Shown: in pieces, positions 2,433-6,843 of the stretch
Layout: every line of letters begins with the position of its first letter
How positions within the stretch are numbered: the stretch's first letter is position 1
Assembly: GCF_000317065.1 (NCBI RefSeq)
Contig: NC_019701.1
Span: 1,302,001-1,366,000 of the forward strand
Direction: 5' to 3'
Origin: Pseudanabaena sp. PCC 7367
Lineage (GTDB): Bacteria > Cyanobacteriota > Cyanobacteriia > Pseudanabaenales > Pseudanabaenaceae
Length of the DNA stretch: 64,000 nt
Made by a program: the position numbers and the translations under genes
Notes under the pieces: model-generated
Told to the model about the DNA's origin: nothing
Seen by the model: the letters and a program-made list of their open reading frames with translations, nothing else
The model's database searches: none

Positions 2433-2561
2433 ATTATTTTGGTAGTGCTGAACAAGTAAGGATTTAGGCGATAGTTGAATATCTATAATCCAAACAAGCT
2501 AAGCTCCGAATTTCAAATCGATTGCTAATTATCCTTACTACTGCATGACTACCATTATTTT
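2433..2561. mobile_element. MITE-like element, copy 1, with 8-bp duplication
   Basis: A 113-bp element (2441-2553) starts GGTAGT and ends ACTACC. Its ends form imperfect terminal inverted repeats: GGTAGT, then eight bases, then AGTAAGGAT on both ends. It is flanked by the direct repeat ATTATTTT (2433-2440 and 2554-2561), as expected for a target-site duplication. An inverted second copy with about five differences over 112 bases lies at 6705-6828. It has no coding capacity, so it would depend on a transposase elsewhere. Confidence 0.75.
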
Positions 2562-2624
2562 AAGTTAGTAATTCCAGAGCATTTTTGAACTGTATAGCCC
2601 TTCTAGTTAGAGCTACATTTGCAT

Positions 2625-4613
2625 TTAATAGGGGCGGGGATAGGGCTTGAGGAGTCGATCGGCCTTGAACACATAAATCTGCTGGATCGCCTGGCCACCG
2701 CGCATAATTGGGATCGTGGTGACTGACGTAATAGCGTCAAAATAATCAGCATATTTAGTCGGTGGCTCCCAAAACTCCTCACTGGTAATATAAATGCCAT
2801 CTTGACCAACCCAGCGATCGGCCGCTTCCCAATAGGCAAACCCGCGCATATCATCGGTAAAGCAAGTTACTGGCGTTTGACTAATCGGCACTAATGCCAT
2901 GGCCGCTTGTCCTGCAAAGAAAAAGTTGCTGGTAAAGATAAAATCACGCTGGGCTAATAATTCAGATAGCTGGGGTGATTCTGCAAATGCCTGCCGCAAC
3001 TGCTGCACATAAAAAAGCTCGGTCGAGGCATCATTTTCTACCGGAATGGCATTAATCAGCGCATACCTACCACCCTGCTGAAATGCGCCAATGCTGATGT
3101 GAGACAGCGCGATCGCCAGCAGCAAGATTACAATCGCGCCAGAACCCCATAACCACCGCTTTACTCGTTTGGGATGTTTACGATCGGCGATCGCCATTTG
3201 CCTCCCCAGCAACAAAGTAGCAATAAAAAAACCTGGCATATGCCAACTAGGTAGAATCTGCCGATAGCCACCCATCAGCGTAAAGCCCAGAAAAATGGGC
3301 AGCGCCACGCAGAGAATTAATAATTGCTGTTGAGCTAGGAGGTCATGGCCAAGCTGAAGAGTTGGTTGATTAGGCTGATTATTAAAATGATTGAGCTGAG
3401 CTGAGATTGATTTAGGGAGCAGGCGATCGCAGTTAGCAATAGTTTTTCTGGCTTTCAACCAAACAATTAAACTTGTACCCAATACCGCTAAAACCTTTAA
3501 AGCCGATCGCCCACTCACCCACCAGAGCGGCAGCCCAAAACTAGGGAATAGATAACCAATCCCAGAAAGAAACGTGACCGCCAAACCAACCAGGTTATAG
3601 CCTGCCTGTGGTACTGCCCTGGCAGATTGGAACCGAAAAGAAGCCCAATCATGTTGATAATTCCAGATCAGCATTGGCGCGATCGCCAGCAGAAACAAAC
3701 TAATCGCCGCCAGTAACCAGGGTGACCAGAATACCCGCCGATGGTGGGGGCTGACCAGGCAAAAGATTGTTAACCCCAGACCAAACACAAACCCATGATA
3801 TTTACCCAAACAGGCTAAACCCACCAGTAAACCAATCAGGGCAATTCGGGAGGTGGGTTGATAGGTAATTTTTTTAACGCGATCAGAACGATCGGAGTAA
3901 TCAAATTGCTCAGCAGTCCAATGGTCGCTAAAAATTATTGGTTCTGCCTGGGGCGATCGCTCTAATTCAGGTTGCAATTGAGCTTTTTGTGCAGGACAAT
4001 CCAGGGACAGATTTTGTTTGGATTTTTGCTGAGGTTGGCCGCAATCATTCTGCCGCGATTGAAGATCGGGGACATTGGGGAGATCCAAAACATCTGGAAC
4101 GTCAGCAAGAGCCCAATCGCTACCTCTAACCTGATCAGGTGCATTACTAGCTTGCCGAAGCATCTGGCAATAACCACTGGGGAAAAACTCTTTGACAGCC
4201 ACATATAACGCCGCCGTACAGAAAAACAGCAAAGGACTATCGGGCAGGATCAACACGCCAAACCCAACCTGGAAAAAGGGAATTAAGGTGGCGATCGCCA
4301 GGGTCATTAAAGCAGCACGTTTGCCAAACAACCGCAGGCCAGAGGCATATAAAAAAAACAACGTGCCCGTATAGAGCAAAACCCCGCCCAGCCGAATTGA
4401 CAATTGTGTAACTGCCCCCCCACTAAGCCAAATACCGATCGCCGTCACCAGGCCAACCAAGGGCGGATGATCAAAATAAGACCAGCTAGGATAGAGCGTA
4501 TAGACGTAATAGTAAGCTTCGTCATAGCCTGGAGGCAAAAAGGCAGCGATCCCTAATCGCAGCATCAAACCGCATAGCAGTAAGGTGATCAATGCGATCG
4601 TCGATCGATTCAT
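2625..4613 (-). CDS. GT39-type membrane glycosyltransferase
   Basis: 662-residue polytopic membrane protein of the ArnT/PMT (GT39/GT83) superfamily. These proteins move a sugar from a polyprenyl-phosphate donor to a lipid, glycan or protein outside the membrane. The N-terminal signature is present: a first membrane helix, then GYDEAYYYVYTLYPSWSYFDHPPLVG with its DE pair and HPPL motif. Many hydrophobic helices follow. A hydrophilic, Q/P/D-rich insertion of about 100 residues (roughly 155-255) interrupts the membrane domain. Similar insertions occur in the other two GT39 proteins of this window. The gene lies alone on the minus strand between MITE copy 1 and a divergently transcribed permease gene. 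The acceptor is unknown. Confidence 0.8.
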   Translation of the reverse strand: MNRSTIALITLLLCGLMLRLGIAAFLPPGYDEAYYYVYTLYPSWSYFDHPPLVGLVTAIGIWLSGGAVTQLSIRLGGVLLYTGTLFFLYASGLRLFGKRAALMTLAIATLIPFFQVGFGVLILPDSPLLFFCTAALYVAVKEFFPSGYCQMLRQASNAPDQVRGSDWALADVPDVLDLPNVPDLQSRQNDCGQPQQKSKQNLSLDCPAQKAQLQPELERSPQAEPIIFSDHWTAEQFDYSDRSDRVKKITYQPTSRIALIGLLVGLACLGKYHGFVFGLGLTIFCLVSPHHRRVFWSPWLLAAISLFLLAIAPMLIWNYQHDWASFRFQSARAVPQAGYNLVGLAVTFLSGIGYLFPSFGLPLWWVSGRSALKVLAVLGTSLIVWLKARKTIANCDRLLPKSISAQLNHFNNQPNQPTLQLGHDLLAQQQLLILCVALPIFLGFTLMGGYRQILPSWHMPGFFIATLLLGRQMAIADRKHPKRVKRWLWGSGAIVILLLAIALSHISIGAFQQGGRYALINAIPVENDASTELFYVQQLRQAFAESPQLSELLAQRDFIFTSNFFFAGQAAMALVPISQTPVTCFTDDMRGFAYWEAADRWVGQDGIYITSEEFWEPPTKYADYFDAITSVTTIPIMRGGQAIQQIYVFKADRLLKPYPRPY

Positions 4614-4667
4614 TGTAGGTATGTTATATCTAAGCTATGAGTATTATGAGTGTATTTAGTCAATCGA

Positions 4668-4706
4668 TTAATTCTTGCAGCTAATTCTTGCAGCTAATTC
4701 TTGCAG
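4668..4706. repeat. Three tandem 13-bp repeats
   Basis: The 13-base unit CTAATTCTTGCAG occurs three times in direct order, the first copy with one change. It lies in the divergent intergenic region between the GT39 gene and the ABC permease gene. It is probably a slippage-derived array; it could also bind a regulator. Confidence 0.8.
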
Positions 4707-4839
4707 CATTGCCAAACTCAAAGATAGCAAAAACACTAATTTCGATCGCCTCAGCAATCTTCAATTAACTCAGCCCTGACCGCAAGCAACTACAATACAA
4801 TCGCTTGACCTTTAAACGCATCTATTAAGCATCAGTTCT

Positions 4840-5862
4840 ATGGCAACCAAAGAAATCTCACCAGTACCCAGCTTTTTCTTCAATACCACCACAGCCTATA
4901 TTTTCAAGCGATTAGGGCAAGGGGCGTTTGTGATTTTTTTGGTCTCCTTGCTCAGCTTTTTCCTGTTGAAGCTCTCACCAGGTGATTGCCTCAGCGATCT
5001 AAGGTTTGATCCTAGTATCACCAAGGAATTTATTGAGAGCGAAGAAATTCGCCTGGGCTATGACAAGCCTGTGTACATGCAATATTTCATCTGGTTGAGC
5101 AGTGCGCTGCGTGGCAATTTGGGTCAGACTTGCCAAGGTAGCATTCCGGTGTTGTCGCTGGTGGGAGCCAGAGCCGGCACTACGTTGATGCTGTCATTTG
5201 CTACGATCGTGATTACCTGGGCGATCGCAATTCCGGTGGGCATTTTCGCCGCCGTTAAACAAAACACCTGGGGCGATCGATTGGTGCAGGTGATCAGCTA
5301 TTTTTTCCAGGGATTCCCCAGCTTTGTGCTGGCAATTTTGTTGTTGATGCTGGCGCAAAATACTTCGCTGTTCCCAGTTGGTGGCCTGACTAGCATTGAC
5401 TTTAGCGACCTATCCTGGTTCGGCAAAGTGGTTGATATTGGCTATCATTTGTTTTTGCCGGTCTTAACCCTAACGATCATTAGTTTTGCGGGACTGCAAC
5501 GACTGATGCGGGGTAACCTGCTGGATGTGATGCGGCAGGACTACATTAAAACCGCCCGTGCCAAGGGTTTACCAGAAAATAAGGTGATTTATGTCCATGC
5601 TTTGCGCAATGCCTTTAATCCAATGGTGACGCTGCTAGGCTATGAATTTGGCGCTTTGCTGAGTGGCTCATTTATTACCGAGTTTTTCTTTAGTATTCCT
5701 GGTTTGGGGCGATTGCTCCTGGAGGCTGTATTTCAGCGCGACGTGAGCCTGGTGATGGCGGGACTGATGATCGGTACATTCATGCTGGTGATTGGCAATA
5801 TCTTTGCGGACTTGATGCTAAAGCTACTCGATCCCCGGATCAAACTAGAGGAAATGGATTAG
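4840..5862 (+). CDS. ABC transporter permease, DppB/OppB family
   Basis: 340-residue inner-membrane permease of the peptide/nickel (DppB/OppB) class. The six-helix pattern is evident. The EAA loop that contacts the ATPase is seen as DYIKTARAKGLPENKVIYVHALRN. The conserved start, RLGQGAFVIFLVSLLSFFLLKLSPGD, is also present. No partner permease (DppC), ATPase or binding protein lies nearby; cyanobacteria often scatter these subunits. The following lipoprotein gene starts 39 bases later but does not resemble a substrate-binding protein. The substrate may be oligopeptide or another small solute. Confidence 0.85.
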   Translation: MATKEISPVPSFFFNTTTAYIFKRLGQGAFVIFLVSLLSFFLLKLSPGDCLSDLRFDPSITKEFIESEEIRLGYDKPVYMQYFIWLSSALRGNLGQTCQGSIPVLSLVGARAGTTLMLSFATIVITWAIAIPVGIFAAVKQNTWGDRLVQVISYFFQGFPSFVLAILLLMLAQNTSLFPVGGLTSIDFSDLSWFGKVVDIGYHLFLPVLTLTIISFAGLQRLMRGNLLDVMRQDYIKTARAKGLPENKVIYVHALRNAFNPMVTLLGYEFGALLSGSFITEFFFSIPGLGRLLLEAVFQRDVSLVMAGLMIGTFMLVIGNIFADLMLKLLDPRIKLEEMD

Positions 5863-5901
5863 CACTGATGCTGAATTAAAACCTTGACTGGAAATGGACA
5901 A

Positions 5902-6531
5902 ATGAAACGATTAAACAACTTATATCCACTAGTTTTAACTATAAGTTTGGCGATCTTCTTTTTGATTGGTTGTTCACAAGCGCCACCCAATCCAACTAAT
6001 CCCGATCCAACAACAGATCAGCAAATCAAGCAAGAGGCGATCGCCCCAGCAAAACAAGTAGGTGATATTGACAATCAGTCATCTGAAGCTGACGAGTTGA
6101 CCGAACCACCGGAAGATGCCGAGATGATCGAGCAAGCGATCGCAGAAATTCCCACTGTAGTTACGATCGCCGATCAACAAGTGGGCTTGGATGTTTTCCT
6201 GTGGCGTGATTTTCAACCAATCAGTCCAGCCGACGGCAAACCGATGCTGACTTTAGTCAAGTTGGTCGAACCAGAGACAACCAAGTCGATCGACCTGGAA
6301 GGCTTAGCTGCCAAGAATTTATGGGTGTTTAATGGTGCTGACACTAATGAAGCAACTGGTGAAATTTGGGCTACTCAACTTGAGCAACAACTACCCAGCG
6401 AATATATGGCACGGCAAGGGCCAAAGTGGGAACCTGGCACTGAGGTAAATGTGGTAGTGGAGCTGGTTGATGCGGCGGAAAATGTTTATCTGCTCAAAGC
6501 GGAGCAGCAAATTATTCAACGCACCGATTAG
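5902..6531 (+). CDS. Predicted lipoprotein of unknown function
   Basis: 209 residues from the ATG at 5902 (the frame is open from a TTG at 5884). A basic N-terminus and hydrophobic segment end in the lipobox LIGC, so the protein is probably lipid-anchored. A low-complexity P/N/D/Q-rich linker runs to about residue 75, followed by a compact domain of about 130 residues (VVTIADQQVGLDVFLWRDFQP and onward). I do not recognise that domain family. It may be co-transcribed with the permease gene 39 bases upstream. Confidence 0.65.
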   Translation: MKRLNNLYPLVLTISLAIFFLIGCSQAPPNPTNPDPTTDQQIKQEAIAPAKQVGDIDNQSSEADELTEPPEDAEMIEQAIAEIPTVVTIADQQVGLDVFLWRDFQPISPADGKPMLTLVKLVEPETTKSIDLEGLAAKNLWVFNGADTNEATGEIWATQLEQQLPSEYMARQGPKWEPGTEVNVVVELVDAAENVYLLKAEQQIIQRTD

Positions 6532-6689
6532 AGTTTTTAGCTTGACTGTATAGATCATTAAAATTAAAACTTGCCAAGTTATTGTTAATCCATAAAGCTC
6601 TTGCAAAAGCTCCAGATAATAAGCAACTAAAGGATCGCAATCCCATTGATCATTTGAGCATTTGGGCAAGAAGTTTAATCTATTTATTA

Positions 6690-6843
6690 ATTATTTCTAA
6701 TCCTGGTGGTCATGTAGTAGTCATGTAGTAATAAGGATAATTAGCAATCGATTTGAAATTCGGAGCTTAGCTTGTTTGGGTTATAAATATTCAACTATCT
6801 CCTAAATCCTTACTTGTTCAGCACTACCATTATTTCTAATCCT
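6690..6843. mobile_element. MITE-like element, copy 2, inverted
   Basis: Element at 6705-6828, in the opposite orientation to copy 1 and differing at about five positions over the shared 112 bases. Its left end has an extra 11-bp duplication (CATGTAGTAGT/CATGTAGTAAT). The element is bracketed by a perfect 15-bp direct repeat ATTATTTCTAATCCT (6690-6704 and 6829-6843), read here as a target-site duplication. That is longer than the 8 bp at copy 1, although both begin ATTATTT. Confidence 0.75.

Follow-up and report, generated by a model that had tools for sequence, protein, structure and literature searches.

The inverted pair of 113-bp repeats in the window, i.e. the whole 64-kb stretch of Pseudanabaena sp. 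PCC 7367 DNA analysed here, is almost certainly the product of independent insertions of a non-autonomous MITE, whose 23-26 bp ends the InsAB' transposase of a resident IS1-family insertion sequence (IS) would recognise in trans. The 113-bp element is a real MITE, and its family is a new one within an established kind. The MITE reading, already proposed in the first-pass annotation, is upheld by about 30 copies in the genome, by flanking repeats specific to each copy, and by the presence of a full-length parent that shares its termini. The window lies in the 4.557-Mb chromosome of a 4.89-Mb genome comprising two contigs.

The two copies in the window are 96% complementary over 113 nt, and form the sole repeat of at least 40 nt within it. 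The coordinates first assigned to the copies are exact to the base, and the presence of three genes in the bracketed 4.1-kb segment was confirmed. The pair, its flanking repeats and the bracketed genes are arranged as follows:

2433-2440, no strand: left target-site duplication of copy 1, ATTATTTT, 8 bp
2441-2553, + strand: MITE copy 1, 113 bp, with IRL at 2441-2463, core at about 2464-2527 and IRR at about 2528-2553
2554-2561, no strand: right target-site duplication of copy 1, ATTATTTT, 8 bp
2625-4613, - strand: PMT_2-type (dolichyl-phosphate-mannose-protein mannosyltransferase-like) membrane protein, a passenger outside the element
4840-5862, + strand: ABC transporter inner-membrane permease (BPD_transp_1), passenger
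5884-6531, + strand: 215-aa protein, lipoprotein-like at its start (ATG at 5902) and without a Pfam match, passenger
6690-6704, no strand: left flanking duplication of copy 2, ATTATTTCTAATCCT, unusually long with 15 bp
6705-6828, - strand: MITE copy 2, 124 bp, whose right end (6705 side) consists of two copies of an 11-bp terminal module
6829-6843, no strand: right flanking duplication of copy 2, ATTATTTCTAATCCT, 15 bp

Between the copies about five differences had been noted, and the count gave five substitutions; in addition, copy 2 carries an 11-bp duplication at its right end. The matching imperfect terminal inverted repeats were also recovered, as the pattern GGTAGT-N8-AGTAAGGAT fits both ends of the element; in copy 1 the arms (2440-2463 and 2531-2554) are 79% complementary. 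The bounding direct repeats correspond to ATTATTTT round copy 1 and ATTATTTCTAATCCT round copy 2. The 113-bp element possesses no transposase gene, and its length is insufficient to encode one. The flanking duplication of copy 2 (window 6690-6843) has 15 bp, while in nearly all other MITE copies the duplication has 8 bp.

MITE copies were counted through searches of the genome. The search with a 115-nt query, consisting of the 113-bp element and one flanking base per side, revealed 30 matches of substantial length with 83-100% identity, all of them chromosomal. The first-pass annotation had proposed a genome-wide search with the consensus, and had considered the case of a repeat with only these two copies whose flanks belong to a larger shared repeat; about 30 copies were found instead of two, and their flanks differ. 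Further copies, diverged or nested, are L040, L148, and L149. The 27 copies of at least 111 nt share a mean pairwise identity of 93.5%, and include one identical trio plus two more identical pairs. The identical MITEs L001, L002, and L003 occupy different sites and carry different duplications. Copies with 100% identity and intact duplications suggest recent movement, and the transposase is presumably active today. The IRL pattern, with up to three mismatches, occurs at 64 places, and a reversed control pattern at none.

Other short elements were also found. L040 (approximately 3516485-3516717, L040:485-718) is an old 233-bp MITE copy interrupted by another short element with the ends GATGTGCAACTA and TAGTTGCACAT, apparently from a different MITE family. 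A second MITE of 91 bp, L145 (1665112-1665202), has similar ends and an 8-bp duplication, AAATAATG. The 95-bp L041 (3437345-3437439) is chimeric, with the left 43 bp taken from the 113-bp MITE and joined to the right half of the 91-bp MITE.

A full-length parent sharing these termini, which the first-pass annotation had suggested looking for, was found in the same genome as a 783-bp IS1-family IS with 11 near-identical copies. Short matches to the last 26 bp of the MITE led to nine occurrences of this repeat; two further copies, as well as two copies of a sister IS with 84% identity, came from a protein search. The parent IS encodes an InsA-like Zn-ribbon protein (Pfam PF03811, 1e-7) and an InsB'-like DDE transposase (DDE_Tnp_IS1; Pfam PF03400, 2e-20). 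The two frames are -1 apart and meet at a stretch of eight A, and the transposase genes lie on the strand opposite to the IRL-to-IRR reading of the IS. Members of the IS1 family, including cyanobacterial ones such as ISMae3 of Microcystis, encode InsA and InsB' with a -1 frameshift. The parent IS resembles this family in the combination of PF03811 and PF03400, in the -1 frame change at A8, and in its 8-bp duplications, whereas the 113-bp element lacks a transposase and has a core matching neither IS. Plasmid relatives of the parent IS, with 65-68% DNA identity, are annotated as 'IS1 family transposase'. One IS copy, L036 (2290761-2291542), possesses seven A and not eight at the frameshift site, which alters the frame relation between InsA and InsB'.

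The relation between MITE and IS is restricted to the ends. The tips of the parent IS begin with GGTAGTGCT; the MITE agrees with the parent at 21/23 positions of IRL and 25/26 of IRR, and with the sister IS at 22/23 and 22/26, respectively. Neither IS has the exact ends of the MITE (one to four mismatches per end), and an extinct relative may have been the real source. The MITE core gave no match in the parent or sister IS, where only the ends align, and the comparison with 80 loci of IS1 relatives yielded weak matches only and no convincing source. Judged from these alignments, the present IS copies are not the origin of the 65-bp core. The MITE interior is thus not an internal deletion of the parent, a feature that is usual, but not required, for parentage. 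The MITE is very probably moved by this ordinary IS1-family IS of the same genome.

Target-site duplications connect both elements. Exact duplications of at least 7 bp were present at 20 out of the 30 MITE copies, all of 8 bp except two (7 and 15 bp), and ten copies lacked a clean duplication; the duplicated sequences vary from copy to copy. When the left flank of one copy was compared with the right flank of another as a chance control, exact matches of at least 7 bp occurred in 3 of 702 pairs, and therefore the flanking repeats are not due to chance. Exact duplications of at least 7 bp were also detected at eight of the 13 ISs, nearly all of them of 8 bp. The equal length of the duplications in MITE and IS provides independent support for a shared transposase.

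The first-pass annotation had further suggested that a shared transposase could mobilise the segment as a composite unit. It is extremely unlikely that the pair and the 4.1 kb between the copies are a composite transposon, moved as one unit by its outer ends, despite the inverted arrangement with IRL ends outward, the agreement of the outer flanks ATTATTTT and ATTATTTC at 7/8 positions, and the existence of IS1-like composites with 8-bp duplications (PMC6382973). In one IS1-type composite, two ISAba3-like copies surround 8.5 kb and an 8-bp duplication flanks the whole unit (PMC6382973). Similar to such composites, the window contains two copies of an IS1-type element round genes. However, each window copy has its own matching duplication, since its inner and outer flanks are identical (8/8 positions in copy 1 and 15/15 in copy 2), and a duplication specific to the whole two-copy unit was absent. 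The outer-flank agreement is unremarkable, as AT-rich targets yield 7-bp coincidences (3/702 pairs). The ABC permease, found in 36 of 38 family genomes (own included) with 60-71% identity across the family, is not recently imported cargo. Because the flanks of each copy match each other, the copies represent two independent insertions.

The same duplications bear on the other suggestion of the first-pass annotation, that recombination between the inverted copies could flip the 4.1-kb segment. Such a flip, which would act as a switch, either slow or regulated, is permitted by the geometry, and has a counterpart in the same genome. The parent-IS copies L038 (approximately 1688916-1689698, +) and L037 (approximately 1705199-1705981, -) are inverted, 15.5 kb apart, and their 8-bp duplications, GATTCATA and TATTTATT, are reciprocally swapped; read from these flanks, the two copies are the scar of an inversion of the intervening segment. 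At the window pair, however, the duplications keep the unswapped, parental arrangement, so no net inversion has taken place since insertion. Swapped duplications occur at no MITE pair in the genome, the repeats measure no more than about 113 bp, a dedicated recombinase next to the copies was not found, and the bracketed genes are ordinary, which makes the flip highly unlikely. Gene order is silent on movement of the segment, since purH and the permease are far apart or on different contigs in family relatives. A composite hop would leave one duplication round the unit and an inversion would swap the inner flanks; neither is present, and hence both readings are unsupported here. Composite transposon and invertible segment were rejected for this locus based on the individual duplications.

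A partial exchange of flanks was observed elsewhere in the genome. The copies L049 (3758193-3758975) and L050 (4370747-4371529), in the same orientation and 612 kb apart, share the flank TATAGTTA, the left of one being the right of the other, which corresponds to half of a rearrangement scar.

The right tip of the MITE is modular. The 11-bp unit GCATGACTACT is absent in L011, occurs once in most copies, and twice in L005 and copy 2. L011 ends 11 bp earlier (TTACTACT), still with an 8-bp duplication, and the extended ends of L005 and copy 2 are directly abutted by their duplications. A G-to-A change is present in both 11-bp units of copy 2 and absent from L005, which suggests that the two extensions arose separately. 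It is possible, but rather doubtful, that the IS1-type transposase tolerates alternative, helically phased end positions, with the element shortening or lengthening its end while moving. The longer right ends may also originate via slippage after insertion.

Regarding the genomic context, copy 1 sits between convergent genes, and copy 2 is located approximately 320 bp upstream of purH. After in silico removal of the element, none of the 30 MITE copies interrupted an open reading frame (ORF) of at least 90 aa, although such ORFs make up 81% of the window; ORFs were called by a simple script, by which short genes could be missed. This placement would fit a domesticated host feature, such as a conserved intergenic RNA or a terminator hairpin, that was dispersed by transposition and retained for its function, and the RNA of copy 1 folds better than shuffled sequences (z -3.8 on the + strand). 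Yet copy 2 folds no better than shuffles (z -1.1 and +0.4), and the imperfect terminal inverted repeats give such a fold anyway. The position relative to genes varies (convergent, tandem, divergent), the element is absent from 144 relatives, and selection against gene disruption accounts for the intergenic placement. A host function is therefore very unlikely as the explanation, and independent MITE insertion remains the preferred reading.

Just to the left of copy 1, the window encodes a DUF3800 protein (PF12686, 1449-2294); members of this family often occur in the vicinity of mobile or defence genes. The stretch that separates the divergent genes for the glycosyltransferase and the permease contains AATTCTTGCAGCT three times in tandem (window 4667-4707).

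No match to the MITE was found in the 144 relatives, the nearest of which belong to the same family but another genus, nor in plasmids. The MITE end had no exact match in named genomes, a search that possibly left out records near the source genome. The 17-nt end motif occurs in five viral contigs, which at such length is no evidence. A literature search that reached few subscription papers revealed no publication on a MITE in this strain, nor on an IS1-driven cyanobacterial MITE, the latter being weak evidence of novelty.

IS-mobilised MITEs are known from other bacteria, such as a 187-bp MITE of Microcystis tied to ISL3 (PMC11448079), and MITEAba12, mobilised by an IS in trans (PMC6382973). 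Similar to these, the 113-bp MITE is short and non-coding, possesses terminal inverted repeats, is dispersed in multiple copies, and has duplications of the same length as those of its presumed parent IS. It differs in its sequence, core and host lineage, and in that the presumed parent belongs to the IS1 family.

In the proposed mechanism, the InsAB' transposase would recognise the 23-26 bp ends of the MITE in trans and cut at the GGTAGT.../...ACTACC tips. The 113-bp unit would then enter AT-rich sites with duplication of 8 bp of the target, and the surviving copies would be mostly intergenic. The pair in the window would surround three ordinary genes by coincidence, with no sign of joint action, and the understanding of these genes is unchanged. 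The strain offers a clean and complete case in which an IS1-driven MITE and its presumed autonomous partner share one cyanobacterial chromosome; identical copies suggest that activity was recent, and swapped duplications make the scar of an inversion between parent copies readable. This would make it a convenient model for the recruitment, by IS1-type transposases, of non-autonomous elements with foreign cores.
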